Below the pieces are notes generated by a model. It was not told the DNA's origin and ran no database searches. It was given only the letters and a program-made list of their open reading frames with translations. Made by a program: the position numbers and the translations under genes. From Selaginella tamariscina (taxonomy: Eukaryota; Streptophyta; Lycopodiopsida; Selaginellales; Selaginellaceae), in contig PUQB01000457.1 in the NCBI GenBank assembly GCA_003024785.1, forward strand, positions 1 to 64,000: a DNA stretch of 64,000 nucleotides, in the 5' to 3' direction. Of this stretch, positions 3,253 to 64,000 are shown in pieces (within the stretch, counting starts at the first letter, position 1; the number at the start of each line of letters is the position of its first letter).

Positions 3253-4382
3253 ATGGGTCACACATTAACAAGGTAAATAATATACCTTGATAATTTTAAG
3301 GTCAGCTAATTATCATTTTGCAGATGTAATGAAACAATTGAGAACATGGATTTTCAGCATTGGCATGAGGTAAGAGAGGGGTTTGGCGACAATTTCTTGT
3401 GCCACATGTCAGAATGACAGAGTTCATGCAGGAAATGGATAATAATGCAGCTCAAAACATCGTTACCATGGGGGCCACTTCAGTTTTTTCATCATCATTT
3501 TTATTGGCTTCAGTTCCGAAATCAATTTCTTCAGCGCATGCAATATCTGAATCTTGTAAGGATGATGTACAATTAAATGATGAAGGGATAGGCAACGAGA
3601 TAGTGCAACGGATAAATGTGAAAGGGAGCAAACAAGTGATTTGCAAAGTATTCAAGAGGCAACGCATGTTACTCATGGCCATATTGTGTTGTTGGATGTC
3701 AATGGTGTTCTGCTTCATCGACAAAGGCCCGAGGATAGGAAAAAAGAAATCAAACAAGGAGATTTCATTCCTTGTCATGGTAAATTTCGATATGATATTA
3801 TTTTTCGTCCAGGGTTGGATCGTCTCTTTCAAAAGCTTAAGGAGATGGGTGCGCTTGTGGGGATTTGGTCATGCATGCAGATTCATAACTTAACACCGCT
3901 GTTGAATTTGCTTAAGAAACATTGTAGTGTTGCAGAAGAGGTGATTCGTAAAGATTGGATTTTTGACCAGCGAATATGTTATAAACCTCTCGAATTTCAC
4001 AATATAAGAAAGGAAAGCAAGCCGTACTTCTTCAAGAATGAAAGAATAATTGGGACTCATGGGGAGATCAGTCGCTTAAGGATAATGAAGAACGCACAGA
4101 TGTTAGTGGTAGACGACTCTCCTCAGAAGGCTATGCTCAACCAAAACATTGCTTGTATTCATCCAATCACTTTCGATCCATATTCTGATATGATATTATG
4201 GATGAGCTAGTGAACTACTTGGATACGTGCCTCAGAAAGAAGAATCTCGAAAATTTTTGTGAGCAGTATCCACCGTATCAACATTTCCTGAAGCTTTTCT
4301 TTCTCGTGATTTTGAATTTTATAAAATGAAGGATAGCAACCGGGCGCTTTATAATATTATTCTTAAGGAACGTCATTTTTAG
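3253..4382 (+). CDS. FCP1/NLI-interacting-factor-like HAD protein, frameshifted
   Basis: The chosen ATG at 3253 opens a 20-bp exon. Introns 3273-3323 and 3370-3431 have GT-AG ends (51 and 62 bp) and keep one frame. The HAD core is at 3641-4210: motif I VLLDVNGVLLHR near 3685-3720, then YDIIFRPGLDRLFQKLKE, then VGIWSCMQ, and near the end LVVDDSPQKA near 4105-4135. This order is that of FCP1/SCP/TIM50-like phosphatase domains. Motif I has Asn where active CTD phosphatases have the second Asp (DxDxT/V). As far as I recall, DLNG-type variants are known in plant members of the family, so the domain may be inactive or altered. Frame changes near 3628 (AAAGGG), 4196 and 4292 must be crossed to reach the best C-terminus, which ends ILKERHF. 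It starts about 100 bp after the previous gene, on the same strand. Confidence 0.65.
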
Positions 4383-6661: not shown

Positions 6662-6989
6662 TTGGAGTTGTGAGCATAAAAGCTCCGACCTAAATGTTGT
6701 ACAATTAGTTACTATCAACACCAGTCTTATTACAATCAATCTCGTATTGTCTTGTTCCTGTCTTGTTTCCTGTCTGTTCCTGTCTCGCTCCTGTTTCCTG
6801 TCCTGCTCCTGGATCCTGTCCTGCTTCTGTCTTGTTCATGGATCTTGTCCTGCGCTTTCCTGTCTTGCTCCTAGATCCGTCCTGTTTCCTATTCCTAGTT
6901 CCTGTCCTACTCTCGGTCCTGTTCCTGAGTCAAGCCTTCCTGTCCTTGAAATCCTGTTCTTTTCCTGGTTCCTGGATCGTGGCTTGACA
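6662..6989 (+). mobile_element. Chromovirus B3 5' LTR, upstream part missing
   Basis: The segment from GGAGTTGTGAGCATAAAAG to GTGGCTTGACA matches the downstream part of the family B LTRs (reverse complement at 46652-47122, 55809-56273 and 11511-12102; same strand at 60552-61116). The first part of U3, with its TATCCTGTAGG repeats, is absent and repeat F abuts instead. The U5 part is a run of CCTGTCCTG/TTCCTG words. Confidence 0.85.
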
Positions 6990-7004
6990 GTTTGATAGTA
7001 ACTA
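6676..7004 (+). promoter_or_regulatory. TATA box, predicted transcript start and self-priming PBS of B3
   Basis: An ATAAAA box lies at 6676-6681. TAGTTACTATCAA at 6706-6718 is about 30 bp downstream, the expected distance to a transcript start. Two bases after the LTR end, 6992-7004 reads TTGATAGTAACTA, the exact 13-nt reverse complement. No TGG-type tRNA primer site follows the LTR. This arrangement is what self-primed elements (Tf1, sushi) use; the mechanism is inferred, the complementarity is seen. Confidence 0.7.
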
Positions 7005-9145: not shown

Positions 9146-10168
9146 TTGTTCACAGGTCCTACAACTGCCCTATTGATCTTGCGGAAGGAAAGACTCCACC
9201 ATTCGGACCGATTTATGCATTGTCACCCACAGAGTTCGAGGTTCTTCGTCAGTACATCGAGACAACTTGGCATCCGGCTTCATTCGTCACTCAAAGTCCC
9301 CTGCAGGAGCGCCTATCTTCTTTATCAAGAAGAAGGATGGGAGTTTACGTTTGGTTGTGGACTACAGGGGTTTGAATCAAGTCACCATTCGGAATTGGTA
9401 CTCGTTGCCATTGATCCGGAACTTTTGATCGGCTGCGAGGAGGCAAAGGTGTTCACGAAGATCGACTTACGAGGGGCCTACAACCTTGTACGGATTCGTC
9501 CCGGTGATGAGTGGAAGACTGCCTTTCGTACAAGGTATGGACATTTTGAGTACACGGTAATGCCTTTCGGCCTTACCAATGCCCAACCGTGTTCCAACAT
9601 ATGGTGAACGACATCTTTCGTGACTTCTTGGACCAGTTTGTGGTGATCTACCTCGACGACATCTTGATTTTCTCCAAGACCAGGCGGCACATGACAAGCA
9701 TGTACGACTAGTTCTAGAGCGGCTTCATGAGCATGGCCTATACGCGAAGTTGGAGAAGTGCTTTTGCGATAGGGATTCGGTGGAGTTCTTGGGCTACATC
9801 GTCTCTCCTGCTGGCGTTTCCATGGACATGCACAAGGTGAAGACCATCGTGGAGTGGAGAGGCCCAAGTCGGTACGAGATGTACAATGTTTCCTTGGCTT
9901 TGCAAACTTCTACAGGCGGTTCATACAGGACTTCTCCAAGCGTGTACTTCCACTCACAGAACTCACCAAGCGCACAGGACTTTTCTCTTGGTCCGACAAG
10001 GCGGAACACGCGTTCACAACACTCAAGGACGTCTTCACGACAGCTCCGATTTTTAGCACATCTTGACCCTTCTCATCCTTTCTTCATTGAAGCAGATGCC
10101 TCGGATTTTGCAGTAGGATCCGTCCTATCGCAAGTTGGAGAGGACAAGTTGCTTCATCCTGTATTCTG
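9146..10168 (+). pseudogene. Chromovirus B3 reverse transcriptase and start of RNase H
   Basis: RT motifs are visible: [20 protein letters not shown] near 9451-9510, [15 protein letters not shown] near 9540-9590, and [13 protein letters not shown] near 9637-9676, with both catalytic regions retained. The connection region (FLGFANFYRRFIQDFSKRV) spans about 9885-9945 and RNase H begins near 10085 (EADASDFAVGSVLSQVGEDKLLHPV). A frameshift at about 9590 and a stop after the YLDD block interrupt it. The copy ends abruptly at about 10168, where an LTR tail in the other orientation is fused. Confidence 0.8.
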
Positions 10169-10526
10169 TATCAAGTCGTGACAGCACCTCCTCCCTAAAT
10201 CTGAGTTCTTACCACTACCATGCATGATGAAGAGGGAACCACCGATGCCTGGGAGAGAGCCTACGCAGCAGCCTTGGAGGATGCATCAGCAGCTACATGT
10301 GCCGCAGTGGTGGAACCTTGCAGGTCGGTGACCACTTGGCACAAGTGGCCAGCTCATGAAGTACATTTGGTGCTCACGTTGAAAGCGCTCAAAATCAGCC
10401 ATGATCTAGGAAAGAAAAAGGAGGGAAAAGAATCAAGAAAAAGGTAGCTGGAAAAACGAAGAGCTATGAAGTAGTTACTATCAAACTGTCAAGCCACGAT
10501 CCAGGAACCAGGAAAAGAACAGGATT
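10169..10526. mobile_element. Junction mosaic of B fragments (LTR tail, linker scrap, inverted gag start, PBS, LTR edge)
   Basis: Pieces in order: an LTR end in minus orientation to 10183 (GTATCAAGTCGTGACA), the complement of the polypurine tract at 10184-10198 (GCACCTCCTCCCTAA), a 25-bp plus-strand scrap of the linker (ACCACTACCATGCATGA), then gag N-terminus and leader on the minus strand (10229-10486) with its PBS complement, then the first 40 bp of an LTR at 10487-10526. This patchwork looks like template switching or multiple end joining. Confidence 0.65.
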
Positions 10527-11510
10527 ACTACAGGATATGCCACAATATGCCTAGAGGATAAGGGACATGTGGACTCATCTTAGCCTCTGCATGCATGCAG
10601 TCACTTTTGCATGTATGCAACCACTTTTAGCACTCATGCCTATATTAGCTCTTGGAGTTGTGAACATAAAAGCTCCGACCTAAATGTTGTACAATTAGTT
10701 ACTATCAACACCAGTCTTACTAAGATCAATCTCGTATTGTCTTGTTTCTTGTCATGTTCCTGTCCCGTCCTGTTTCATGTCTTGCTCTGGATCCTGTCTT
10801 GCTTCTGTCTTGTTCCTGGATCTTGTCTTGCGCTTTCCTGTCTTGCTCCTAGATCCGTCCTGTTCCTATTCCTAGTTCCTGCCCTACTCTCGGTCCTGTT
10901 CCTGAGCCAAGCCTTCCTGTCCTTGGAGTCCCTAGAGTCTACAGGTTAAAGCGAATCTTTCTTCAAGATATCACCCACAAACCGATGGGCAGTCCGAACG
11001 CACAATTCAGACCTTAGAACAGTATCTTTGTTGCTTCATCAGTTATCAGCAAGACAACTAGTTGGACCTTCTTCCAATGGGGAGTTTGCCTACAACAACT
11101 CCGTTCACGCATCTACAGGACAGACACCTTTCTTTGCTCTTACAGGTCACCATCCACGTTTTTGACTTTGCTCCTCCCGCTTCTCCTTTTTCCGCTCCTG
11201 TAGTACAGGATCGTCTTCAGCATCTTCGGCAAGTACAGGATAAATCTCCAGGTTCATCTTCAGCAGGCACAGGAACGATACAAGCATCATGCTGTGCTCA
11301 CCGTCAGTCGGCACCTGCATACAAGATTGGTGATCTTGTGTGGCCTCTTCGTCGACACATTCGCACCAACAGGCCTTCTTCTAAGTTGGATTTTCAATGA
11401 TTGGGCCCTTACAGGATCGTGGCGAAGGTAAATCCTGTAACTTTCCGACTCGAGTTACCATCCACGTGTGAAACTTCATCCTGTGTTTCACACCTCCTTG
11501 TTCCTGAGTC
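10527..11510 (+). mobile_element. B-family LTR fused to an integrase fragment
   Basis: A plus-oriented LTR piece runs from about 10527 (ATATGCCTAGAGG...) through CATAAAAG at 10665 and AGTTACTATC near 10700 to about 10930. It then joins integrase coding at 10945-11500: [13 protein letters not shown] sequence, [20 protein letters not shown], and a C-terminal segment HTRLVI..GLFVDTFAP. No RT or RNase H precedes the integrase here, so this is a deletion product or a template-switch product. Confidence 0.65.
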
Positions 11511-12102
11511 AAGCCACGATCCAGGAACCAGGAAAAGAACAGGATTCCAAGGACAGGAAGGCTTGACTCAGGAACAGGACCGAGAGTAGGACAGAAATTA
11601 GGAATAGGAACAGGATGGATCTAGGAGCAAGACAGGAAAGCGCAAGACAAGATCCAGGAACAAGACAGAAGTAGGACAGGATCCAGGAGCAGGATAGGAA
11701 ACAGGAGCGGGACAGGAACAGGACAGGAACAAGACAATACGAGATTGATCATAGTAAGACTAGTGTTGATAGTAACTAATTGTACAACATTTAGGTCGGA
11801 GCTTTTATGCTCACAACTCCAAGAGCTAATCTAGCATGAGTGCTAAAAGTGGTTGCATGCATGCAAAAGTGATTGCATGCATGCAGAGGCTAAGATGAGT
11901 CCACATGTCCCTTATCCTCTAGGCATATCCTGTAGGAATATCCTGCAACCGAATCCTGTGTCCGGAATCCTAGTAGGAATATCCTATAGGAAAGTCTTGC
12001 AACCCATATCCTATATCGGGAAACCTGTAGGAAAACCTGTAGGAAAGTCCTACAACCCATATCCTGTATCCGGAATCCTGTATTTTGTATCAGGTCGTGA
12101 CA
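11511..12102 (-). mobile_element. B-family LTR, minus orientation
   Basis: It runs from GTCAAGCCACGATCCAGG to GTATCAGGTCGTGACA, with a partial internal duplication of the CAGGAA-rich region near 11540-11590. The predicted transcript-start sequence (as TTGATAGTAACTAATTG) lies near 11770 and the TATA complement near 11805. The 5' end is fused directly to the integrase fragment at 11500-11510. The U3 part carries TATCCTGTAGG repeats. Confidence 0.8.
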
Positions 12103-17436: not shown

Positions 17437-18877
17437 TGAAAAGGACGTGTATTCAACCTTAAGGATACATACAAGGTTAGTAAACCCTTATATACAAGGA
17501 GGCTAAGTTATTTTTGGCAACCTTTGATCTAATCCTTTCGTCCCACAAAATAAAGAAGAACCTATACCATCGTGAACTTTATAATATAGTTTCAAAAACC
17601 AATATTAACATCTGCAACTAACTCATGAGCTTTAAGTGCATCTATTATTCGTTAACTTCATGGTTCCGAGTGTTGTGCCAACCTAATTTCGCAAAGACTA
17701 AGCAAAGGTGTAAGTTTTAAAGATGATAAAACACCTTTGCTCATGTCGACTAATTAGATGTTTCTTCTTTAATATCAAATGTACCGTAATATGATCACAT
17801 TCTACCAAGGTCAAAGAACCATGAAGGTAAGCATGAAACTTATGAAATGCCCAAACCACATCTAAACATTCCTTGTTTGTAATCAAATAATTGAGCTTTG
17901 GATCAATGAAACTTTGATAGTATATGCAATGGAATGCCATTGACCTAATTTTGAATCTTTTTGCATAAGATCAGCACCCAGACCAATATTTGAAGCATCG
18001 GTATGAAGAACAAAGGGGCGAGAGAAATCAGGATAATGCAGAAGACGAGCATGTCAAGAGATGAATAAGAGACTCAAAGGAGGATTGACAAAGAAAAACC
18101 ATATGAAATAAGGAGAATGGAGCAAAGCACATAGTGGAGTCATTTCATCTGTCAAACGTGAAACAAATTGCGCCAAGTAAGTCACCTTGCCCAAAATTCG
18201 TGATGTGTTTTTGGAATCGGGAACTCTTTCACTGCCTAAATCTTTTAAATATTAACTGGTTTAGGGTTTAGGGTTTAGGGTTTTAGGGTTTTAGGGTTTA
18301 GGGTTTAGGGTTTAGGGTTATGTATAAAAACCATAAACATGATGTTCGAATGCAATTGCCAATGCTGATAAAGACAAATCAATCATAGCCTTGGATGCTG
18401 AGGCAAAGTGTTGAAACAACAAGGCAGTAGATCCTTGCAAGCAAGGTGGCAACTCACAAAGTTGATGGAGGGGATCCCACTAGTGATATACAGCAACCAT
18501 ACAAAAATGCTCAACCCAAACATGTGCATCTTCTATGGCTGCTCGTGAGAAAGAGTTAGGGCGAGGACAAGGATTATACCTAGTTGGATTATGGATTTTT
18601 TGTGTTAAGAGACCAAGCAATTGTTGTGTTTGAACCTGAGACTTTGCTATGACCTGCAAAAGTTGTACCATAGAGACAACCATAGCTAAATAAAGGGAGA
18701 AGAAGAGAACTAAAGACTACCCCGCATTTCCACCGATGAAAAGGATATGTATTCAACTTTAAGAATATATACAAAGTTAACAAAACCTTCCTTATATACA
18801 AGGAGGCTAAGTTATGTGGCATCATATTTAATTTTAGTATATGCCTTAAAATATGTATATTTTGTAAAATCCTTACA
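17437..18877 (-). mobile_element. Gypsy element H2, internally deleted copy of H
   Basis: A left LTR part begins TGAAAAGGACGTG at 17437 and breaks off near 17545. The right LTR runs from about 18735 to 18877 (ATCCTTACA). Internal pieces match H on the minus strand: RNase H (KLNYLITNKECLDVVWAFHK..LVECDHITVH) at 17940-17700, and gag (AEESQVQTQQLLG-like, NPTRYNPCPRP) at 18683-18480. Protease, RT and most of integrase are gone. Flanks GATA and TATA match 3 of 4 bases. A primer-site-like sequence complementary to 18719-18734 lies next to the right LTR. Confidence 0.75.
18257..18319 (+). repeat. Interstitial telomere-type repeat (TTTAGGG)n
   Basis: About eight to nine TTTAGGG units, two with an extra T, in tandem. 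Sequence to the left matches H near 25740, and to the right matches H near 27590 on the same strand, so the telomeric run sits exactly where about 1.85 kb of element H is missing in H2. Confidence 0.9.
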
Positions 18878-19320: not shown

Positions 19321-19943
19321 GCGATGTTCTGGTCCTAGCACTTCCCTCTGCATGTTAATAACCAACACTAATCATTATGTTATGTATTTAAGTGAGACAC
19401 ACATATCTGCAGTGTGTGTGCGTGTGTATGTGTATGTGTTTGTGTGTGGTGTTCTAAACACGCTCTTAAAATACGGAATACATTTACCTCTTCATTGTTC
19501 GTGTCTACGTACTTCCTCTTGCGGCTTTTCTTGAAAAGCCAGATTGGAGGCCCAAGCTTCTTGTCGCCTTCAGATGGATTCATGGACATGCTCGTGTCGT
19601 TGCTCGTATTCACCCATTCAACCTGGAAATTTTAAGTTTGTATATACATATCTGCAGTGTATGTGCGTGCGTGTGTGTCTGTGTGTGGTGTTCTAAACAC
19701 ACTCTTGACCTCTTTCTTATATAAGGTGATGTGTGTGTGTGTGTTACAGCAGAAACCTTGAACCTAGTATAATGTGGCACCATACATATATGTCTACAAT
19801 CCATGTATGTTAATATTAATTCTGTACACATAGATATATACACTCGTCATAAAGTTATTTTATACGTGTGGTCCTCTGGCCAAGACTTAACTACACAAAC
19901 ACAGAGGATATTTCACGATTGAGTGTGTGTGTGTGTGTGTGTG

Positions 19944-19985
<42 letters not shown>

Positions 19986-20600
19986 GCAAGCAGACTAAAT
20001 GACGAAAACGTAATCAAGTAAAATGAACTATCAATTCCGGACAATCAGAAAGCAGAAAACCAATGGAACCCAAGTGGATGTGTGTGTGGTAAGTACCTTG
20101 CAAGAAATGCTGCAGAAAAATGATTCGTTTGCCAGCTTCCGATGGCAAATTCTACAGGAGCCACAATCTGACCCGTGGTCCTTTGGAGGCTCGTTCTTGA
20201 GATGAACCACAAGGGCGCCGTTGATAGACGTTGAGAACTGACCTCGCGTCTAAAAAATTGAGTGCCCATTGGTCCGAAGCTTTCCGTATCTGCGAATCAA
20301 ACAGCAAGTTAATACATTTCCCATTCCGGATTCTTGGCCGAAGAACTTACCTGAAGAACCAAATGATCCCCGTGACGACAGCGAGCGCATAGTACCTGAG
20401 AACAATTCACACAGAAATAGTTTCAAGGACGGATCGGTTTGGAGCAATCGCATGGCTGTAGAACGTCGCGAGTAGAAGATCCCGGATCTTCTGTCCCCTT
20501 TCATTGTCATTCTGAAAGATTTGTAAACACAAAGGGAAAGAGAAATTTGGCAAAGACTTCACGGGCTCGTAATGCGGCTTCGCCTTTCCGATCCGGGGCC
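19321..20600 (-). pseudogene. PLATZ-family gene, left inverted copy, disabled
   Basis: Reverse-complement counterpart of the intact gene at 28964-30288. Exon counterparts: exon 2 at 20351-20511 (161 bp; intact copy 162), exon 3 at 20097-20289 (193 versus 213), exon 4 at 19488-19622 (135, same), exon 5 remnant at 19321-19354. Lesions seen: the segment with the start codon and first splice donor is missing at about 20558-20561 (about 43 bp); one C is lost in exon 2 (about 20450), shifting the frame before the first Cys pair; 20 bp are lost in exon 3; and the C-terminal RRKGIP tail of exon 5 is deleted. Splice sites of the middle introns survive. It cannot encode a PLATZ protein as read. Confidence 0.85.
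19924..19988 (+). repeat. (GT)n(GA)n microsatellite in PLATZ pseudogene intron
   Basis: A GT run interrupted once by GG, then a GA run. It is the inverted equivalent of the (TC)n(AC)n run at 29563-29617 in intron 3 of the intact copy. Confidence 0.9.
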
Positions 20601-21100
20601 GACTGCAAGAAATCGGGAAAATCACTGTGCATGAAATGGACTGGCTGCTGATAGAAATTGAAGTTGAGGCCGCTTCTTGACGAAACCTCTTTCGGCTGGA
20701 AAACCACCGAGAAATCTCTGGAACCTTCGGGAAAATCACTGTGCATGAAATGGACTGGCTGCTGATAGAAATTGAAGTTGAGGCCGCTTCTTGACGAAAC
20801 CTCTTTCGGCTGGAAAACCACCGAGAAATCTCTGGAACCTCGACCTTCCTGCTCACAATCTCTCTGCGCCTCCGGACAACGTGAACCAATCGCTCCGCCT
20901 TGTAAATTCCGAGTGGAAATCGTGAAGAACAGAAAAAAATGGAGCTTCTTTGTCAGGATCACGCAGAATCACTCAGGATCGCACTGTTCCCTAGCTAGAC
21001 GAGAATGTCGAACTGTTGCCAGGTGGCCAGGCAGTTTACGGGTTCAGGGTTTAAGGTTTAACACGGTTAAAACGCGTAAAATTGACAAAATCATTATTCG
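20601..21100 (-). other. 5' leader of the left PLATZ copy with 114-bp tandem duplication
   Basis: Matches the leader of the right copy (28640-28960) except for a 114-bp direct duplication (20613-20726 and 20727-20840) absent there. About 300 bp present at 28347-28650 in the right copy is replaced here by a short segment near 20985-21005. The sequence up to about 21090 (CACGGTTAAAACGCG) aligns with 28260-28346. Confidence 0.75.
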
Positions 21101-23814: not shown

Positions 23815-25130
23815 TTACTCCCTCCTCTGGATTCGAACGTCGATGATACTGAGACAGTCGTTGAACATGCACATTTTGATCCACTCCCTCTGAATTGCGG
23901 ACTGTGTACACTTGAGGACCCAATTTTTGTACAATGGAATATGGACCAAGTCGTTTGGAAATTAATCCAGAGGACAACCCTTTGAATGCATCTTTGGATA
24001 TAAAACTAACACTTCATCACCCACAGCATAATCAGGGACAAACGAATGTCGAGCATTATAGTGTCGTTGCTGTACCTCCTGAGCATGTGTTAACTTTGTC
24101 AACATTTCCTTACGCAATACCGGAAGAGTACGATCCAAATACCGACTCCACATTTGTGCATATGTTGAAACAGGACGAAAAGAGGGGAACCAACATCAGA
24201 AGGAAACACAGGGGAACGACCATACAAGAATGAAATGGAGAGACTCCAGTGGACTGGTGTACAGAAGACACATAAGCAAACTGAAGGAGGGGTAAGTACT
24301 GATCCCAGTCGGTTTGGCGCTGATTCACATACTTAGATAACATACACTTGAAAGTCGGTTGAGTCGCTCTACTAGACCATCCGTTTCTGGATGATAGGGT
24401 GTTGTGAAAGACTGTTTGATTCCCAACCTTGTAGTTAGCAAACTCAAAACTTCAGCTGTGAAATGGGGTCCTTGATCTGAAAGAATCCGCTCTGGACATC
24501 CATGCCTTAACACAATAAGAAATCTGCCACATGAGTTGCCTTGGCCTCCGGAAGAGCCCGACCTCCACATACCGTGTCAAATAGTCTAACAGAACAATAA
24601 CATATGTATTCCCTGCTGTCGTTGCTGGAAATGGTCCAATGAGATCATATGCAACCAGCTCAAAAGGACGATGAACTTGAATAGATTGCAGACGACCACT
24701 AGGAGGAGTGGAACGAGGATTCCGAACTTGACAGAGATGACATGTTTGTAAATATTGATGAAGGTCATGTCGGAGCTGAGGCCAATAGAACCGTGAACGT
24801 AACTTGTCCAACACTTTGTGAAACCCAAGATGACCAGAGAGAGGGTCATCATGGAATGCATGAAGAAAGTGAGGTACATAGCATGATGGGATTACCAACC
24901 GAGGTGGGGTACCTGTACTACTTTGTCCCACAAAATAAAGAAGATCCTCTACCATCATGAACTTTGCAACATGGTCCCGAAAATCACTATCAACATCTGC
25001 AACCAACTCAGGAGCTTTGAGTGCATCTATTATCCGTTGACTCCATGGTTCCAAGCGTTGTGCCAACTTAATCTCACGAAGACTAGGCAAAGGTGTAGGT
25101 TCTAAAGATGGCAAGACACCTATAGCAACT
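23815..25130 (-). pseudogene. Element H integrase and C-terminus
   Basis: Minus-strand reading from 25130 gives the zinc-finger region (HLGFHKVLDKLRSRFYWP..CHLCQVRNP), then AYDLIGPFPATTAGNTYVIVLLDYLTRYVEV (first catalytic Asp), then ILSDQGPHFTAEVLS (second Asp) and YHPETDGLVERLNR (Glu region), split by frameshifts near 24570 and 24340. The C-terminal GDEVLVLYPK-type domain is at 24090-24060. No chromodomain is seen. Confidence 0.8.
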
Positions 25131-26620
25131 GGTGCCCGTGACAAAGCATCCACATCTGCCATGGAAGAACCTGGACGATGATGAACTGTGAATTGATAAT
25201 CTTGCAATGCTAAGGCCCACGCGCATGTCGACCCATTAGATGTTCTTCTTTAATACCGAATGTACTGCAACATGATCACATTCCACCAAGGTTGAAGAAC
25301 CATGAAGATAAGCATGAAACTTATGAAATGCCCAAACCACAGCTAAACATTCCTTATCAGTAGTTGAATAATTGAGTTCTGGACCACTGAGACTTCGACT
25401 AGCATATGCAATGGGATGTCGTTGACCTGATTCTGGATCTTCTTGCATGAGATCAGCACCCAGACCAATATCTGAAGCATCAGTACGAAGAACAAGGACG
25501 AGAGAAATCAGGATAATGAAGAAGGGGAGGTTAAGAGATGGATAAGAGACTCAAAGGAGGATTGACACTGAGAGGACATGAGAAAGAAGGAGAACGAAGC
25601 AAAGCACGTAGTGGAGCCGTTTCATCTGCTAAACGTGGAATGAACTTGCCAAGTAAGTCACCTTGCCCAAAAATCTCTGAAGTTCGTGATGTGTTTTTGG
25701 AATCGGGAACTCCTTCACTGCCTGAATCTTTGTGGATCTGGACGAACACCCTCACGAGAGATAACAACTCCCAAATACTTTACAGAAGTCTAACCAAACT
25801 TGCACTTTGACAATTTCAACATTAATCGATATCGCCGCAACCGTGATAAGATTTGCTCCACGTGAGCCAAATGTTCTTCCCATGTACCAGTTGAATGCAC
25901 CAAAAGATCATCCACAAACACTCCTGCAAAAGATTCCAAACCTCGAATGACTTCATCCATGAGTCTTTGAAACGTGCTGGAGCATTCATCAAACCAAAAG
26001 GCATCACCGTGAACTCATACAATCCATTGGGTGTTCGAAAAGCAGTCTTGGCTGCATCTGCTGAATTGAGAGGAACCTGCCAATAGCCTGAAGCTAATCT
26101 AGTGTCGTGAACCAACGACTCTTCCCCAATTTGTCAATAAGGTCATCCATGCGTGGCATAGGATAACTATCCGGTACTGTCACATGATTCAAAGGCCGAA
26201 AATCAATCGTAAAACCTACCTCCGTCTGCTTTGTCAATGATATGGGGTCGAAGCCCACGGACTACAAGACGGACGTACCACTCCTTGAGCTAACATATCC
26301 CGAACCGCTTGTGCCATTTCTTGCTTCTCTCGTGGACGAACTGAGCCTTTATTGGTGCAGCATCTTTTGTATCAATGCGATGGCGAGTGTTAACCGCAGT
26401 CCTCCCTACCACTACTGGTTGTTGTAGATCTGGGAACCGACGAAGAAGCTTTTCCATATCCTTTTGACGACATTCTGGAGATGGATCGGGAGGAAAGACC
26501 ACCTCTGCAGCAGCTGAAGAGATGCTTGAACTCCAAATTGTATTGTAGGTTGTGATTGTAAGGAAGAATAACCTGGAATGAAAACCTCGTGTTGAAGTCC
26601 ACATGTACACCCTCAACACG
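25131..26620 (-). pseudogene. Element H reverse transcriptase and RNase H
   Basis: RT motifs on the minus strand: ASGYWQVPLNSADAAKTAFR near 26095-26035, LYEFTVMPFGLMNAPARF, and the active-site FVDD segment at about 25918-25900 (GVFVDDLLVHS). RNase H is at 25448-25236 (SRSLSGPELNYSTTDKECLA, LVECDHVAVHSV). RT upstream fingers lie near 26340 (PIKAQFVHERSKKW). Frameshifts occur at about 25820 and 26115. Confidence 0.8.
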
Positions 26621-28192: not shown

Positions 28193-28963
28193 GTATTCTC
28201 GGTTCACGTGCTTCTTCATTGTTATTCTTCCTTTATCGAACATATAAGCAAATGATTTTGTCAATTTTACGCGTTTTAACCGTGTTAAACCTTGAACCCT
28301 AAACCCGTAAACTGCCTGGCCACCTGGCAACAATTCGACATTCTCCTCAACAGTGATATATCCCCTGCTGTTCTTGCTGTTTCTTCCCTTCATTCGCATG
28401 ATTTCGGCTCGGAATTTCTTAATCTCTCATATCTGCATTCGCCGTTTCACGGCTTGATCGGATTCGGTAATCTTTCCCCCACGTTTCAGCGTTTCTCGGC
28501 TTGATCTCACACAAAGAAGCTGCATTTCTTGCTGTTCTTCACGATGTCAGCTCGAGATCACTAGGCGCGGCTATTTCTTCCCGGGACTTGGGCGTCAAAA
28601 GAGGTTTCTAACGATTTAAAAGAATTTCCGGCATCGCGATCCTGAGTGATTCTGCGTTGTCCTGACAAAGAAGCTCCATTTTTGCTGTTCTTCACGATTT
28701 CCACTCGGAATGTACAAGGCGGAGCGATTTTGTTCACGTTGTCCGGAGGCACAGAGAGATTGTGAGCAGGAAGGTCGAGGTTCCAGAGATTTCTCGGGGG
28801 TTTTCCAGCCGAAAGAGGTTTCGTCAAGAAGCGGCCTCAACTTCAATTTCTATCAGCAGCCAGTCCATTTCCTGCACAGTGATTTTCCCGATTTCTTGCA
28901 GTCGGCCCCGGATCGGAAAGGCGAAGCCGCATTACGATCCCGTGGGATTTCTATTTCACAGGA
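28193..28963 (+). promoter_or_regulatory. Promoter and 5' leader of the intact PLATZ gene
   Basis: No separate gene. 28260-28346 and 28640-28960 match the left arm, so the duplication carried the promoter. 28347-28640 is specific to this copy. Element H ends at 28192, so any upstream control now lies behind a retrotransposon. The transcript start is not determinable here. Confidence 0.5.
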
Positions 28964-29556
28964 ATGTCTCGGCTCGGAGACGTGGTGAGTCTTTGCCAAA
29001 TTTCTCTTTCCCTTTGTGTTTACAAATCTTTCAGAATGACAATGAAAGGGGACAGAAGATCCGGGATCTTCTACTCGCGACGTTCTACAGCCCATGCGAT
29101 TGCTCCAAACCGATCCGTCCTCGGAACTATTTCTGTGTGAATTGTTCTCAGGTACTATGCGCTCGCTGTCGTCACGGGGATCATTTGGTTCTTCAGGTAA
29201 GTTCTTCGGCCAAGAATCGGCAAATGGGAAATGTATTAACTTGCTGTTTGATTCGCAGATACGGAAAGCTTCGGGCCAATGCGCACTCAGTCTTTCAGAC
29301 GCGAGGTCAGTTCTCAACGTCGGACGTATTCAGCCCTACATTATCAACGGCGCCCCTGTGGTTCATCTCAAGAACGAGCCTCCAAAGGACCACGGGTCAG
29401 ATTGTGGCTCCTGTAGAATTTGCCATCGGAAGCTGTCAAACGAATCATTTTTCTGCAGCATTTCTTGCAAGGTACTTACCACACATGGGTTCCATTGGTT
29501 TTCTGTTTTCTGATTGTCCGAAATTCTGTTGAAAGGTTTAAATCGTCATTTAGTCT

Positions 29557-29619
<63 letters not shown>

Positions 29620-30288
29620 ATCGTGAAATATCCTCTGTGTTTGTGTAGTTAAGTCTTAGCCAGAGGACCACACGTATAAATAAAATAACTTTATGACGAG
29701 TGTATATATCTATGTGTACAGAGTTAATATTAACATACATGGATTGTAGACATATATATATGGTGCCACATTATACTTGGTTCAAGGTTTTCTGCTATAA
29801 CACACACACACATCACCTTATATAAGAAAGAGGTCAAGAGCGTGTAAAAACACCACACACAGACGCACGCACGCACACACACTGCAGATATGTATTTACA
29901 AACTTAAAATTTCCAGGTTGAATGGGTGAATACGAGCAACGACACGTGCATGTCCATGAATCCATCTGAAGGCGACAAGAAGCTTGGGCCTCCAATGAGT
30001 TTTTTCAAGAAAAGCCGCAAGAGGAAGTACGTGGACACGAACAATGAAGAGGTAAATGTATTCCGTATTTCAAGAGCGTGTTTAGAACACACACACAGAC
30101 ACATACACATACACACTGCAGATATGTGTGTCTCACTTAAATACATAACATAATGATTAGTGCTGGTTATTAACATGCAGAGGGAAGTGCCAGGACCATC
30201 CACACCACCATTGGCCGAAGATCGCAAAGCAGTCGTGACTCGCACTCACAGGCGTAAGGGAATTCCAATTAGAGCACCTATGTACTGA
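28964..30288 (+). CDS. PLATZ-family zinc-dependent DNA-binding protein
   Basis: A complete five-exon model with GT-AG introns and no frame break: 28964-28984, 29035-29196, 29259-29471, 29917-30051, 30181-30288 (639 nt, 212 residues). PLATZ proteins are plant transcription regulators that bind AT-rich DNA through zinc. Diagnostic features: IRDLLLATFYSPC, then a B-box-like Cys/His set (CDCSKP..NYFCVNCSQVLCARCRHGDH), VLQIRKAS across the intron 2 junction, SDARSVLNVGRIQPYIINGA, a second Cys cluster CRICHRKL..FFCSISCK, and the C-terminal RRKGIPIRAP. The start gives a short N-terminus (MSRLGDV) in its own exon. All exon lengths are multiples of three. The inverted copy at 19321-20600 is broken, so this is the only plausible functional one here. 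Confidence 0.93.
29563..29617 (+). repeat. (TC)n(AC)n microsatellite in PLATZ intron 3
   Basis: A run of TC followed directly by a run of AC inside the 445-bp third intron. Counterpart of 19924-19988. Confidence 0.95.
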
Positions 30289-42115: not shown

Positions 42116-45100
42116 CACTCCCCGCCTTTGAAAATGTCAATGTCCTTGTTGACGTCCAATATAATATCATTTGCATCTCTTGTGCACTACATGTATAAGT
42201 GTGACAATCGTAAAGTGATTTGCACAATACTTTGGAAGGTTGGCCAATGGTGGTATTCATGTCTTTGTATCACAAAGCTAGCTCATTTCATTGCTTACAT
42301 TTGGTTTGACTTTGAAATTTTGGTGGACAAATGGTTTTCTCATTTACAACATTGCAATTTCTTTTACACTACTTATTCTTGTATATGCATAATTATGGTA
42401 TAACATGTTTGTTGGATCATATGCTACTTCACTTAATGTCAAGCATTGTGATCTATGTAATGTACGTGCAATTGCAAGGTGTAATGAAAATTGGATCTGT
42501 GTAATAATGTCTCATTCCAATCCATCTACACATATTAATGTAGAGCGCCTTTGTATAGGTGTCCATGATGGGTCTATATTGAGAGTCCTAAGATGTTGGT
42601 TTGTTTCCCTTGTTGCTTGGCCAACATCTATTACTGCCATCCAAATTGTAGGGTTTTTTAATTTGGTATACGTTTTGAATGTACCATTTGTTTTGTTCAC
42701 CATCTCATCATTTGCGCCTATGTTGTAATTGATTTCAATTGTCATTTCAAGTTTTAACTTTAGTCCAGTGTGAAGGCCTCTTGTTTCCTTTGCTTCATTA
42801 AATCAATTTATGCTAATTGAAATGAGGGTCCATTCACATTGATAGCATCAATAATGAATTCAAGATTTATGATTTTATTAACAACCTCTTCATTGTGCTT
42901 GTCGACTTCCTTGTTTGTGACAAATATGTGTTGAAACAAAGAATGAGAAGGTGCTTCTTTGCACACATGTTGAATTAATATATTCGAAGGTCTTCTATAA
43001 TTTGCATATCTATCCTCATGCAATTTAGTATTTCTATAAACTTTGCATCTTTTTGCCTTTACACTTCTTTACACCTCATATTTATATATATCTGTGTGTG
43101 TGATCTAACCAAATACGTGGCTCCCTTTAGAAAGGTTATACTCCCAATGTTCAAAATAGAATTTTCTTACATCTGGATTAATTTGATAAAATCACCACAG
43201 AAAATTTTGTTTAGTGACTCTAGTGCTCGAATCCATTGTCTATGTATCTAAGATGCTCTTTTGCACATGTCCTTCAAGAGTGTTTATCCCACAAGCAATG
43301 TTTCGTCAACTACCAACATCTTCCACCGTGCATAATGCTTTTAGTACTTAGCAATGTTTACTACAGACAGAGGTAGCTACTCAGTTTTCATTGACACAAC
43401 ACCAAAAGCTTTGTGTATGGTTGTTCCATTGATCTGAAATGTTGCTCAACATGTTGTACTAGCAACAATGATAATCTTGTGTATTCCTTTGCACTATGAA
43501 TCATTGTACTCATATTGTCTTTTCATCACTTGTATCACTAGCATCAAAGTGAAGGTCTTTTCTAGCGCCAAAAAAAGCTGCAATTATAAGGAAAAGGTGG
43601 ATTAACACATTTGGGTGCAAGCATTTTGCACATACTACTCTGTCAATCAAGTATTATTGTTCATGTGTTGTTAATCACATTTGACCATGGTAGCCAAAGT
43701 TTGCTATCATACTAACACAAGGTAACACCTTTAATGAGGGTACATGCCTAGCAATTACTTCAAGTTCAAGTCCAAATCCTTGCACATGTTTATTTGCATG
43801 TTCCAAGTCTATTTAATTGAGCCTCACCAACCTCCAGTTATCCTCATTCCATGTTTCACATGTTGCTCTTGTTAGCAATTAGAATGTGTAGTGTCATTTT
43901 TACTCACATTTCAACTTTAACAAGTTTGAAAGCTTCATAAAAGGTGCTCATTCCAAACGACAAGTCATTGTCAGTGTGGTGAGGCTAGTGCATAATCAAT
44001 TGTTTCAATTGCAAATTTCTTTACATCAACATGTTCTTTGCAATTTATGTATTGAATGATACAGGCTAGCTACCTTTTGCAAGCTTATCATGAAGTTGCC
44101 AATAAGTTGACAAATATGATGTTTGGAGACATAATTAGCAAAAAGAAACATTAGTTAACGAGGTTCGGCCACTCTATATACTTCTCAAGCAAACTTCTTG
44201 TTGATATAGCCTCACTATATTTGTTGGCAATTGTTGCAAGTCGCTTAAGGGTTCAACATGATTGTCATGTCTTCATGCAAGTTTGTGTCGAGGAATTGCA
44301 CTGTACGGCTTTTGTGATGTAGTGGGAAGGAAAGACATAGGAATACAGCCAGGCCAATTGATATTTCTTATGCTTTGATTAATACTATAGCCATTTTTCC
44401 TATATGAGTTGAAGCAAGAAGATTTTTATTTCTAGAGAGTTTTTTAAGAGTTTCACGCATTTTAGATCTTCAGTAGTCATATATGATGTGCAATATTTTG
44501 TTGTTTTGTGAGGATCCAATATAGATTGGATGTCCATGTTTGAGCGCCAAAGGTTGGCCAATGCCGGATTGAATGGGTTAGTTAGTATGTCTTTGATGGC
44601 ATGTTTCAAAAAGCTCTTGGGGTGTTTAAGTTTTGCACGTAGGATAAGCTTGTACTCTTCTTGGCTTAAGTCACATTGCATGAAGAAACCAGCGTGAAGA
44701 GGTGGGTTTTTTGTGTTGAGTGCTCTTCTCACCATAGAATATTGAGCATTGAACTGGCATTTTGTTCCGTTTTTGGTAGGTGGCCTTATTCTTATGTGCT
44801 TGCACTTCAGCAAATTACCTAGTAATAAAGCTTGGTATGTAGATATGTACAAATTGATGAAGGCTACAACTTTAGAGTTTGGGTCAACCCCGTATATTGG
44901 TGCATCTTCAACATGGAGGAGGCAATGTTCATATGGCATGCCATGCATTTGGAAGTGTGTTATGAACAAGTGGTCGTTCACATTTCCAAGCATTCTACCT
45001 TGCATGATAAGATCTCGCAATGCCTTTGCTCTATGATTATAGTAGCACATGGTCATGTCGAATAAGTCTTGCAATGCATTCAGACCCTAACAAACCATCT

Positions 45101-46651: not shown

Positions 46652-47122
46652 TGTCAAGCCACGATCCAGGAACAAGGAAGTGAGTAGGATTCCAAAAATA
46701 AGAAAGCTTGACTTAGAAGCAGGACAAGGAACAGGACAGGAACTAGGAACCAAGAACAAGACAAGAGCAGGAGGCAAGAAGCAAGACAAGATAAGAACAA
46801 GACAAGACAAGATTGATCGTAAAAAGACTGGTGTTGATAGTAATCGATTGTACAACAATTAAGTCGGAGCTTTTATGCTCACAACTCTAAGCTAATCTGG
46901 TCATGAGCTAAAAATAGTGACCTTATCCTCTAGGCATATCCTGTAGTATATCCTATAGGAATATCCTGTAGGAATATCCCAGGCATATCCTGTAGGAATA
47001 TCCTATAGGCATATCCGTAGGAATATCCTATAGGAATATCTGCAGGCATATCCTGTAGGTATATCCTATAGGCATATCCTGTAACCTGTATTCTGTATCC
47101 TATCCTGTATCGGGTCATGACA
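46652..47122 (-). mobile_element. 3' LTR of B1
   Basis: 471 bp, from TGTCAAGCCACGATCC to GTATCGGGTCATGACA on the plus strand. U3 side (46920-47100) is an array of TATCCTGTAGG-type units. Polypurine-tract complement GCACCTCCTCCCTAA follows at 47123-47137. Confidence 0.9.
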
Positions 47123-48600
47123 GCACCTCCTCCCTAAGGACGAGTTCCAAGTCTTGGGACCTGGTTTAGCAGGATAACGCCGATGGAAAGCAGCAACTTT
47201 GGAAGAAGCATGGAGTAAGTTGGATGCAGGTTCCCAAGTGCGATCGGTAGGCAAATAACCTTTCCAATCCACCAAGTATTGAAGTTGGCGGCGATGAAGA
47301 CGAGAATCAAGGATGGCTGCAACTTGTACTCAGGTTCACCGTCAATGACCACAGGAGGGGAGGAGAAAAGCACGACCAGGAAGAGAAGAAGGATATGGCT
47401 CCAACAAAGGTGTGAAACACAGGATGAAGTTTCACCGTAGATGGTAACTCGAGTCGGAAAGCTACAGGATTGACCTCAGCCGCAATCCTGTAAGGCCCAA
47501 TCGTTGAAAATCCAACTTAGAAGAAGGCTGTTGGTGCGAATATGCCGACGAAGAAGCCACACGAGATCACCAATCTTGTATGTAGGTGCCGGTTGACGAT
47601 GAGCATCAGCATGAGCTTGTACCATTCCTGTGCCTGCTGAAGATGAACCGGAGATCCTCATGTACCTGACGAAGATGCTGGAGACGATCCTGTACTGCAG
47701 GAGCGGAAGAAGGAGAAGCAGGAGAGCAAAGTCAAAACGTGGATGGTAGCCTGTAAGAGCAAAGAAAGGTGTCTGGCTGTAGATGCGTGAACGGAGTTGT
47801 TGTAGGCAAACTCTGCCATTGGAAGAAGGTCCAACCAGTTGTCCTGTTGGTAACTGATGAAGCAGCGAAGATATTTCCAAGGTCTGAATCGTGTGTTCTG
47901 ACTGCCCATCAGTTTGTGGATGGTATCCTGAAGAAAGGTCCGCTTTAACCTGTAACTCCGGAGAAGTTCTCGCCAAAACTTGGACATGAATTGTGGGCCT
48001 CGATCAGAAACAATGCTCTCAGGAAGACCATGGTGTCGGAATACTTTGCGGATCACCAACTCAGCGGTTGTCTGGCTGTAGCAGTCTTGTGACATGGTAG
48101 GAAATGAGCTGTTTGGTGAAACGGTCAACCACCACAAGAACTGCATCAAATCCACGAGAAGGAGGAAGATCTGTGAGGAAATCCATAGAAATGGATCTCC
48201 AAGGAGCAGAAGGAACAGGAAGAGGACGAAGAAGACAAGGGTGCGTGACGAGGCATCTTCGACCTATTGCAGGTGTCACAACTCCGTACAAACTTGTCCA
48301 CAAAACCTCGCAACCCAGGCCACCAATAGTTGCGAGTCACCAACTCAACTGTCTTGGCCACACCAAAATGTCCTGTAGCCGGGGTATCATGACAATCCTG
48401 TACCACACGAGTCCTGCAAACACCAACAGGAACGTACAGAGACCTTCCCGATACAGGAGTCCGTCTGTATGGCAAACAACTTGTAGTCTATACGGGAACT
48501 GGAGGAAGAGGAACTTGCGATGTCAGGACTAATGTGTGAAAACACATTCCTTGCCAAGTCGTCTGTAGCCAACTGCAAATGGATGTCCTATAGGAGTGTG
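47123..48600 (-). pseudogene. B1 integrase and chromodomain
   Basis: Zinc-finger region ([28 protein letters not shown]) at about 48375-48245, catalytic segment [12 protein letters not shown] near 48140, [13 protein letters not shown] near 48000-47960 with the second Asp, and [16 protein letters not shown] near 47925-47880 with the Glu. The chromodomain remnant ([18 protein letters not shown]) lies near 47240-47190. Four or more frame shifts relative to B2. Confidence 0.85.
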
Positions 48601-52020: not shown

Positions 52021-52221
52021 CTGGTGGGAAGTAGAGGATAATACCATCTGTGTCGAGATGTTGGACACTGAAAGGCAAATTGTCCACGGAAGGGTTTCAT
52101 TGGTGGCAAGGACAAGTAGATGCATAAAGCTTAAGGAGATGGAGCGTGGAGAGGAGAACAAAGGAGACTTCTTTAAACCACAAGGTAAATTCTATTTGTT
52201 CTTGCTCAATAGGTAAACTAC

Positions 52222-52380
52222 ATGGCACGGGAGGAGTCACACACACGTGCTATTGTGGTGGAGGGACGACTTGGTGAGCGTCCAGTGCGAGTCCTTGTGG
52301 ATAGCATGAGTAGTGATAACTTTGTGTTAACAAAGTTAGTTGAGGAGTGCAGCTTGCCCACGAAGACTGTGCCTCAATAC
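52222..52380 (+). pseudogene. Element C protease-like region
   Basis: RPVRVLVDSMSSDNFVLTKL is the retropepsin active-site region, but the usual DSGS/DSGA reads DSMS, so it is probably inactive. Little gag coding precedes it. Confidence 0.65.
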
Positions 52381-52890
52381 GAGATTGAGGACTCAGCTAT
52401 CACACAGAGCTACAGTGCTTGTGTGGAGGAGTTACAGCTGGAGGTTGGCAAAACCCAGCTGGTGGAGCTGCACAAGAGCCTCAATACGAGATTGAGGGCT
52501 CAGCTATCACACAGAGCTATATGCTTGTGTGGAGGAGTTACAACTGTAGGTTGGCAAAACCCAGCTGGTGGAGCTGCATGAAGAGTCCTCAATACGAGAT
52601 TGAGGGCTCAGCTATCACACAGAGCTACAGTGCTTGTGTGGAGAGTTACAGCTGTAGGTTGGCAAAACCCAGTGGTGAGCTGCACGAAGACTGTGCCTCA
52701 ATACGAGATTGAGGGCTCAGCTATCACACAGAGCTACAGTGCTTGTGTGGAGGAGTTACAACTGTAGGTTGGCAAAACCCAGCTGGGGAGCTGAATGAAG
52801 ACTGTGCCTCAATACGAGATTGAGGGCTTAGAGCTAAATTGCTTGTGTGGAGGAGTTACAGCTAGGTTGGCAAAACCCAGCTGGTGGAGA
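52372..52890 (+). repeat. Five tandem units of about 107-111 bp in element C
   Basis: Units begin with CCTCAATACGAGATTGAGG at 52372, 52479, 52587, 52696 and 52807. The array expands the segment just after the protease core and carries small indels that shift the frame between units. Confidence 0.92.
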
Positions 52891-55531: not shown

Positions 55532-55808
55532 CAATGGAGAAGAAACCATGGATGCTTGAGAGAGAGCTTGCACAGCAGCCTTGGAGGATGCATCAGCAGC
55601 TGCCTGCGCCGCATTGGTGGAACTTTGCAGATTTATGATCACTTGGTGCAAAGTGGCCAGCTCATGAAGTAATATTTGGTGCTCGCATTAAAATTGCTCA
55701 AAATCGGCCATGATCTATGAAAGAAAAAAGGAGGAAAACGAAGGAGAAGAATCAAGGAAAAAAAAGTAACTGAAAATCGGAAAGCTATGAAAGCAGTTAC
55801 TATCAAAC
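55532..55808 (-). pseudogene. B1 gag N-terminus, leader and self-priming PBS
   Basis: The gag start (AAQAAADASSKAAVQALSQA) is read leftward from about 55710. 55794-55806 on the plus strand reads CAGTTACTATCAA, so the minus strand has TTGATAGTAACTG two bases after the LTR, complementary to the LTR sequence at 56004-56016. Confidence 0.8.
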
Positions 55809-56273
55809 TGTCAAGCCACGATCCAGGAATAAGGAAGTGAGCAGGATTCCGAGAACAAGGAAGTTTGACTCAGAAGTAGGACAAGGAACAGGACAGGGAG
55901 CATGATAGGGAGCAGGACAAAAACTAGGAACCAGGAACAAGACAAGAGCAGGAGGCAAGAAGCAAGACAAGACAAGACAAGATTGATTGTAGAAAAACTG
56001 GTGTTGATAGTAACTGATTGTACAACAATTAGGTTAGAGTTTTTATGCTCTCAACTCCAAGCTAATCTGGTCATGAGTTAAAAATAGTGACCCTTATCCT
56101 CTAGGCATATCCTGTAGTATATCCTATAGGCATATTCTGTAGGAATATCCTACATGCATATCCTGTAGGTATATCCTATAGGAATATTCTACAGGCATAT
56201 CCTGTAGGTATATCCTATAGGCATATCATGTAACCCGTATCTTGTATCTTACATCCTGTATCAGGTCGTGACA
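55809..56273 (-). mobile_element. 5' LTR of B1
   Basis: 465 bp, TGTCAAGCCACGATCCAGG to GTATCAGGTCGTGACA. Predicted transcript start at 56004-56016 and TATA complement near 56042-56048. A TATCCTGTAGG-type array occupies about 56100-56230. Confidence 0.9.
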
Positions 56274-56460
56274 GATGGAAGTGCTAGCTTCGCCTAGAGT
56301 TTTCTGCAAATACCTAATGACACCCGGCCGGACTATCACTAGATACTCAAGTGCATTAAGCGGGCCTGTTTTCTCTATACCTATAGCTTATCAACATAGT
56401 ACAATAGGTAACAATAGTTAACGTCCAAAGTAAAGGGGAGTCATAGTAAAAACTATGACA
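56274..56460. repeat. Family A repeat, copy 3, right part
   Basis: Begins with the duplicated GATGG, then AAGTGCTAGCTTCGCC..., and ends AACTATGACA, completing copy 3. Confidence 0.85.
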
Positions 56461-60551: not shown

Positions 60552-61116
60552 TGTCACAACCCGATACAGGATACAGGATACAGGATTTCGGATACAGGAT
60601 ACAAGATGCAGGATTTCGGATACAGGATAGGGTTACAGGATATGCCTGCAGGATATTCCTACAGGATATACCTATAGGATATTCCTATAGGATATGCTTA
60701 TAGGATATGCTACAGGATATGCCTAGAGGATAAGGGATACTATTCTTAGCTCATGACTAGATTAGACTCATGACTAGATTAGCTTGGAGTTGTGAGCATA
60801 AAAGCTCCGACCTAATTGTTGTACAATCAGTTACTATCAACACCAGTCATTCTACGATCATTCTTGTTCTTGTCTTGTTCTTGTTTGTCTTGCTCCTTTG
60901 CCTCATGTTCCTATCTCGCTCCTAGATCCAGTCATGTTCCTGTCCTACTCCTGGATCCTGTCCTGCGCATTCCTGTCCTACTCTTGGATCCTGTCCTGCG
61001 TCTTCTCTTGCTCCTGAGTTCCTAGTTCCTGTCTTGTTTCCTATCTTGCTCCTGAGTCAAGCCTTCCTACTCTTGGAATCCTGCTCACTTCCTGTTTCCT
61101 GGATCGTGGCTTGACA
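60552..61116 (+). mobile_element. Solo LTR of chromovirus family B
   Basis: 565 bp, TGTCACAACCCGATAC to GTGGCTTGACA, with exact target duplication ATAAT (60547-60551 and 61117-61121). CATAAAAG near 60797 and CAGTTACTATCAA near 60830 keep the promoter layout. The U3 side has ACAGGATATGCC-type arrays. Confidence 0.92.
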
Positions 61117-61640: not shown

Positions 61641-61931
61641 CGTAAAATGTTGATAGTAACTGATTGTACAACAATTAGGTCGGAGCTTTTATACTCACAA
61701 CTCCAAGCTAATCTGGTCATGAGTCTAATATGGTCATGAGCTAAAAATAGTGACCCTTTATCCTTTAGGCATATCCTATAGGAATATCCTGTAGGAATAT
61801 CCTACAGGCATATCCTGTAGTATATCCTATAGGCATATCCTGTAGGAATATCCTGTAGTATATCTAGGCATATCCTGTAAGTATATCTATAGGCATATCC
61901 TGTAACTCGTATCCTGTATCCGGTCGTGACA

Positions 61932-63300: not shown

Positions 63301-64000
63301 GTCTGTACGGGAACTGGAGGAAGAGGAACTTGCGATGTCAGGACTAATGTGTGAAAACACATTCCTTGCCAAGTCGTCTGTAGCCAACTGCAAACGGATG
63401 TCCTGTAGGAGTGTGGAATCTGCTGGAGCCTGATGAACTTGTAGTGCTGCAAGCCGAAGTCGATCAGGACCCAACAACACTTGCTTTTGACAGTCATATG
63501 CAGGATCGCCGGGGTCGGTGCAAGGTAAGAGCGCCTAGACAATGCATCCGCCTTGCCATTTCGAAAACCAGGCCTGTAGATGATGACGAAATCAAAACGT
63601 GATAGGAACTCCGCCCACCTAGCCTGTCGCCGACTGAGAACTCGAGCCGTTTGAAAATACTCCAGGTTCTTGTGATCCGTAAGAACTTGTACAGGATGCG
63701 CAGCACCTTCCAGGAAATGCCGCCACTCCTCGAACGAATCCACAATGGCCTTGAGTTCCTTGTCATGAATCTCGTAATTGATCTCCGCCGAAAGGAACTT
63801 ACGAGAGTGAAAAGCTACAGGATGAAGCAACTTATCTTCTCCAACTTGTGATAGAACAGATCCTACTGCAAAATCCGAGGCATCTGCTTCAACGAAGAAG
63901 GGACGAGAAGGATCAGGATGTGCTAAAATCGGAGCTGTCGTGAAGATGTTCTTGAGTGTTGTGAATGCATGTTCTGCCTTGTCGGACCAAGAGAACACTC
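63301..64000 (-). CDS. Chromovirus B2 RNase H, cut by window end
   Basis: SWSDKAEHAFTTLKNIFTTA near 63990, FFVEADASDFAVGSVLSQVG near 63900-63840, [20 protein letters not shown] near 63760-63710, and [20 protein letters not shown] near 63590-63530. Open for about 150 codons, then breaks near 63510. RT continues outside the window. Confidence 0.85.

Follow-up and report, generated by a model that had tools for sequence, protein, structure and literature searches.

A primer-binding site complementary to the long terminal repeat points to self-primed reverse transcription in an abundant chromovirus of Selaginella tamariscina

How does a retrotransposon begin reverse transcription when its long terminal repeat (LTR) is not followed by a primer-binding site (PBS) of the tRNA type? 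The question is raised by a stretch of 64,000 nucleotides from the lycophyte Selaginella tamariscina (contig PUQB01000457.1, positions 1 to 64,000; hereafter, the window). A preliminary description, made from the letters of the window alone, had noted element copies whose PBS matches a site inside their own LTR and had proposed that they are plant chromoviruses that prime themselves. Here, we follow the two sites through the window and through the 300.7-Mb genome. The element very probably primes reverse transcription from the 5' end of its own RNA, in the manner of Tf1 and Tcn1, which we consider by far the best reading of its sequences.

In the copy designated B3, the match was exact. The PBS at 6992-7004 (TTGATAGTAACTA) and the LTR site at 6706-6718 (TAGTTACTATCAA) are reverse complements over 13 nt. 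The LTR ends with TTGACA at position 6989 and is followed by GT (6990-6991), so that the PBS begins two bases past the LTR, as had been described. A CATAAAA box at 6675-6681 lies 32 nt above the A at 6707, which sits in YAGTTACTATCAA; the distance from an ATAAAA box to the LTR site had been given as about 30 bp. Only the TATA-to-U5 part of the B3 5' LTR is kept in the window, sequence above about 6654 having been lost. The pairs reported for two further copies were likewise present: on the minus strand, B1 has the G/C form (56004-56016 with 55794-55806), and a mosaic copy has the T:A form. The features of the window that bear on the question are as follows.

6662-6989, plus strand: remaining part of the B3 5' LTR, TATA region through U5 end (blastn within the window)
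6675-6681, plus strand: CATAAAA, a TATA-like box (sequence)
6706-6718, plus strand: putative B3 self-primer site, with a loose T at 6706 and the core AGTTACTATCAA at 6707-6718 (predicted RNA 5' end); exact complement of the PBS
6990-6991, plus strand: GT spacer between LTR end and PBS (GT in 124 of 128 5'-type pairs)
6992-7004, plus strand: B3 primer-binding site, with core 6992-7003 and a loose 13th base at 7004
9624-10178, plus strand: RNase H-like domain in the B3 internal region (Pfam RT_RNaseH_2, 5.6e-09)
10472-10484, minus strand: PBS of the mosaic copy, A form
10696-10708, plus strand: primer site within another LTR fragment (10644-10931)
11766-11778, minus strand: primer site, T form, within the mosaic copy's LTR
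46652-47123, minus strand: LTR at the other side of B1, probably its 3' LTR; primer site decayed (46834-46846), no PBS after it
55794-55806, minus strand: PBS of B1, G form
55809-56274, minus strand: 5' LTR of B1, with the primer site at 56004-56016
60784-61116, plus strand: further LTR, with a primer site of the C form at 60828-60840; no PBS after it
61946-62830, minus strand: third copy, C-terminal part of integrase, SH3_Tf2-1 and chromodomain (Pfam SH3_Tf2-1, 1.3e-18; Chromo, 2.8e-13)

The coding piece of the third copy lies upstream of an LTR that has a primer site at 61650-61662. Allowing at most two mismatches, the 13-mer matched the window 12 times, 9 of them exactly; shuffled versions matched a mean of 4.9 times and at most 10 times. 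Some LTRs also carry, upstream beside the primer site, arrays of a 13-bp unit like TATCCTGTAGGCA in variable number (46924-47083, 56095-56227, and 61759-61918), possibly promoter repeats.

The predicted proteins identify the element as a Ty3/Gypsy chromovirus with a caged type-I chromodomain. Pfam matches in three minus-strand pieces of the window (63168-63998, 62284-63279, and 61946-62830) follow the chromovirus order of RNase H, integrase zinc finger, SH3_Tf2-1, and chromodomain, and the best relative in the PDB was the Ty3-G Gag-Pol structure 7q5b. In the chromodomain, YEVAAIL...YLVDWKGY, the cage aromatics Y, W, and Y are present (placed by eye), which makes it type I. Chromodomains have been reported for chromoviruses only, and in non-seed plants their aromatic cage has been conserved (PMC6317226); a type-I chromodomain with this cage has served as a criterion (PMC3350952, PMC6317226). 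On two diagnostic features, namely the type-I chromodomain and a self-complementary PBS that is not of the tRNA type, the element is likely a chromovirus of the Tcn1 type. Elsewhere in the genome, matches between LTRs extended over 497-656 bp and were 74-98% alike, at best TGTCACGAC...GCTTGACA (10 cases, 11 loci). These copies have the TG...CA ends of LTR elements. A purine-rich polypurine tract (PPT) was present in 8 of the 10, and 4 of the 10 (L047, L052, L057, and L058) have a perfect 5-bp target-site duplication (TSD). For the other six, the alignment did not begin at the LTR start, falling short of it or overshooting it, or else the second LTR was no plain 3' LTR. A scan of viral contigs with the integrase/chromodomain piece found no relative.

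The window holds other features beside these copies. At 52359-52889 on the plus strand, a 108-bp unit (36 codons) is repeated in tandem about five times, and the array overlaps an open frame (52213-52578) that, by eye, looks like a protease region. Reverse transcriptase and integrase pieces continue on the same strand to 55010, and this whole stretch interrupts the interior of B1. A Gypsy integrase piece (24455-25249) lies between the arms of a large inverted repeat (19330-20982 and 28636-30198), which are 89-96% alike in long pieces. An interstitial plant-type telomere repeat, (GGTTTAG) 8.6 times, occupies 18258-18319. An open frame with an NLI-interacting-factor-like phosphatase domain (3584-4207, plus strand) is probably part of a host gene, and a weak match to Helitron_like_N, under the curated cut-off, was found at 44403-45086 on the minus strand.

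Across the genome, the exact 13-mer occurred 5,633 times (2816 + 2817 on the two strands), compared to 10 times (2 + 8) for the reversed control. A pattern that fixed the TATA box, the LTR end, and CTT, with both sites left free, fitted 376 places and none in the control; it fixes the letters of the TATA box and the CTT after the PBS, so that copies deleted at the end of the PBS are left out. An intact PBS core in its context was present at 1,320 places. The carrier of the self-complementary PBS is a very abundant plant retrotransposon; a LEAFY C-terminal domain encoded in the genome likewise marks the host as a plant. Among 5'-type pairs of LTR and PBS (n = 128, after 2 of 130 were dropped for an incomplete PBS), 93 were fully complementary over 13 nt, and 121 had at most four mismatches. 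As an internal control, we used 26 LTR ends that lack the element's leader; over the 13 bases that come next, 25 had at least eight mismatches and one had four. The complementarity between LTR and PBS is not due to chance.

These samples were drawn as follows. Of the 376 places, 100 were listed, and 80 of those make up copies L059-L138; one scoring round covered 40 of 1919 candidates, and L139-L152 were chosen by the letters of their sites; the latter enter the tree and the box count described below and stand outside the 121 pairs. The seven pairs with more than four mismatches (L049, L057, L062, L075, L086, L124, and L126) were left out of the 121 and are, by their look, 3' LTRs, wrong anchors, or indels. 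Two of them, L086 and L124, have LTRs that are 97% alike and share the non-PBS sequence that comes next, GTATCAACATTGTGG, either as a duplicated locus or with an odd leader.

The complementarity has sharp limits. In the 121 pairs, only 23 of 1452 cells at pairs 2-13 were mismatched, and 20 of these were C>T or G>A, the changes by which methylated copies usually decay. Pair 1 was mismatched in 18 of 121 (Fisher's exact test against the core, P = 1.2e-10). Just outside the 13 pairs, 120 of 121 copies had a mismatch at the base past pair 1 on the upstream side, and all 121 had one at the next base on the U5 side. Beyond the first mismatch lie two more A:T matches, nearly constant among copies (4 and 5 mismatches of 121). 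Because pairs 2-13 rarely mismatch, pair 1 is loose, and the flanking bases nearly always mismatch, the reliable complementarity is 12 nt long and begins at an A: AGTTACTATCAA, 6707-6718 with 6992-7003 in B3. A primer of 13 nt is not supported, since pair 1 is loose and probably lies outside the primer. The sequences of the two sites, their place, and these limits can be read directly in the copies.

The position of the core fits the start of a transcript. Its first A follows a pyrimidine, as would be expected of a usual start site, since transcription start sites are usually YR, and the spacing from a TATA box places the expected RNA 5' end about where the core starts. The box began 32 nt above the core A in 123 of 132 copies and 30-33 nt above it in 130, and none was found in 2. 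Only the spacing is informative in this count, because the site finder accepted copies only if a box resembling ATAAAA lay about 12-42 nt away, and 80 copies had been picked with this box. In elements of the Tf1 type, the PBS pairs with the initial RNA bases; here, the complement starts at this same distance below the box, where the RNA would begin.

If the two sites interact, changes in one should be matched in the other. The covariation expected over the 13 positions was found at pair 8 and failed at pair 1. At pair 8, a double transversion (T>A in the LTR, A>T in the PBS) occurred at 12 places with a site spacing of 270-300, compared to 517 standard places and 4 single-sided ones (Fisher's exact test, P of about 2e-21, relatedness ignored). 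The single-sided places comprise three clear LTR changes and one odd place; none had changed in the PBS only. This joint change is an observation across copies, and its history is less sharply drawn. When a tree was built from the remainder of R-U5, the best one required 9 steps for the change in the LTR and 6 for that in the PBS, and the well-supported branches force at least two changes (77 of 129 inner branches being weak). An independent-pairs test on the tree found only two well-supported pairs (median P = 0.5), too few to reach significance. The tree includes 8 of the 12 places (L079, L141, L142, L143, and L146-L149), the other four (L139, L140, L144, and L145) having failed the tree filter; its rows comprise 10 with the double change, including L126 and L138, which are not among the 12, and 3 with a single change. 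The double change may have spread by recombination between copies.

The PBS does not always track the LTR, since L075, L082, L129, and L116 carry an LTR A at pair 3 facing a PBS that still has C (L082 and L129 being near-identical). In L050, pair 8 has changed in the LTR and the PBS is standard. The preliminary description had taken the end pair, T:A in B3 and C:G in B1, as a sign that both sides had changed together. We rejected it as evidence of this kind. Pair 1 is the loosest position, both letters can arise by C>T decay, and its letters (LTR:PBS) in the 121 pairs were C:G in 101, C:C in 9, C:T in 4, T:G in 3, T:A in 2, T:T in 1, and T:C in 1, so that an LTR T faced a PBS A in only 2 of 7 cases. 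In the neighboring tree rows L009 (T:A) and L130 (T:G), the two sides have not moved together.

One sequence is common to most copies, and relatedness inflates the raw counts. Many matching pairs might have arisen if a single founder copy had passed on to thousands of others a protein-binding motif shared by the two sites, or an inverted repeat that had become fixed in it by chance. However, a chance match to a 13-nt PBS in an LTR of about 330 nt is expected about 5e-6 times (330 / 4^13), and the double transversion, at 12 places, has at least two origins by the supported branches. Furthermore, mismatches in the core are nearly all C>T or G>A, whereas pair 1 and the flanks vary freely. We regard such an origin as vanishingly improbable.

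Self-priming would be superfluous if the PBS were served, as usual, by a tRNA or a cleaved half-tRNA, the match to the LTR being secondary. tRNAs serve most plant elements, with half-tRNAs accounting for about 2% (Neumann et al. 2019, PMC6317226). However, the sequence after the LTR, GTTTGATAGTAACTRCTT, lacks the TGG that starts a tRNA-type PBS as the complement of the tRNA end CCA, in agreement with the preliminary description. In 40 of 62 listed tRNA genes, covering 7 anticodons (initiator Met and most others lie outside this set), no tRNA matched the PBS with fewer than 4 mismatches in 12, either at its 3' end or anywhere, and none matched better than it did shuffled PBSs. As a positive control, the canonical initiator-Met PBS reached 4 mismatches at best in this set, from which that tRNA is absent. 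A tRNA would also leave the joint change of LTR and PBS unexplained, and priming of this kind seems to us scarcely probable.

The pairing itself is predicted to be stable. In folds computed from the site onward, the RNA 5' end paired with the PBS at a mean probability of 0.93-0.96 in 26 of 32 copies, all 32 chosen for at most two mismatches; five copies in which the site or the PBS had changed gave 0.77-0.87, and a single decayed copy gave 0.11. Such a fold could be real and yet serve packaging, translation control, or circularizing of the leader, with another primer in use, and folding by itself would select for joint change too. Against this, the site sits in the register of a PBS; with two bases between it and the LTR, there is hardly space for another primer, and the complement ends sharply at both sides. 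A role in folding without priming is therefore very improbable.

Self-priming is supported by the position of the site at the expected RNA 5' end, by the sharp ends of the complementarity, and by the genome-wide double transversion. It is further supported by the want of a complement after leaderless LTR ends (25 of 26), by the lack of a tRNA-type PBS, and by the type-I chromodomain, which Tcn1 elements also have. Together these lend strong support to the original proposal of a self-priming chromovirus.

We infer a series of steps, from RNA start and cut to primer and copying. Transcription would start at or beside the A at 6707, and the RNA bases AGUUACUAUCAA would fold back onto the PBS, two bases beyond the LTR. 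A cut after AGUUACUAUCAA, such as RNase H makes in Tf1, would free a 12-nt primer. The 3' A of this primer would pair with the first PBS base, and synthesis would next copy GT and U5. Plus-strand synthesis would later copy the primer into the PBS, by which PBS and LTR site would tend to stay in step.

The PBS base just beyond the core behaves differently. Base 13 was G in 112, C in 12, A in 2, and T in 1 of 127 rows in register, and 35 G and 6 C were found among 41 of the 1,320 places. Since C occurred mostly with one leader type (10 of 12) and was hardly clustered on the LTR tree (10 changes, compared to a shuffled mean of 11.7), base 13 appears to be passed on together with the leader rather than the LTR; it does not follow the LTR letter (e.g., L052 and L141). 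We mention one speculation, which is improbable: that the primer is 12 nt long from the A, that base 13 is not templated by the LTR, and that its C copies the RNA cap, having been added as plus-strand synthesis ran to the end of a capped primer. If true, cap copying would leave a genomic trace of the RNA cap in the PBS of many copies.

In the reports cited here, self-priming in plant chromoviruses is a prediction from sequence (PMC6317226), and one study saw none in a plant Tcn1 element (PMC2864245). The 1,320 intact PBS cores in context allow a statistical case built on limits, decay pattern, and double change. The element also allows the start of the RNA and the length of the primer to be predicted precisely. 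It adds to the likeness between plant Tcn1-like elements and the Tf1/sushi elements of fungi and vertebrates, and the debate on horizontal transfer turns on this likeness.

The preliminary description knew of no report of self-priming in green plants, but it is already in print as a prediction, and the present element fits that kind. Neumann et al. (2019, PMC6317226) report that the Tcn1 chromoviruses of plants, which come from mosses and club-mosses, in their majority have no tRNA PBS and are predicted to self-prime like Tf1/sushi elements. Novikova et al. (2010, PMC2864245), on the other hand, reported no evidence of self-priming in SM-Tcn1 of Selaginella. RLG1 of the moss Physcomitrium patens (PMC7466625) is, by its description, likewise a very abundant Gypsy element with an integrase chromodomain; the main text of that paper contains neither "PBS" nor "self-prim". 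Among other plant LTR elements, self-priming has been proposed for the TAR copia elements (Houba and Osr-1), which belong to the Ty1/copia lineage (PMC6317226). Tcn1 of Cryptococcus neoformans, likened here by description, is also a Gypsy element proposed to self-prime like Tf1/sushi and differs in its fungal host (PMC7175516). In Tf1 and Tf2 of fission yeast and the Tf1/sushi group, the PBS carries the complement of the RNA 5' end. Tf1 RNA pairs with it through its first 11 bases and is cleaved by RNase H at the junction of bases 11 and 12 (PMC7175516). The core is 12 nt here, and priming, inferred here, has been demonstrated in Tf1 (PMC4600332). The closest likeness in description is to the plant Tcn1-clade chromoviruses, Gypsy elements of non-seed plants with a type-I chromodomain, no tRNA-type PBS, and predicted self-priming (PMC6317226, PMC2864245). 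In contrast to those reports, the putative self-primer is followed here genome-wide, with the length of its core and the joint change of its two sites.
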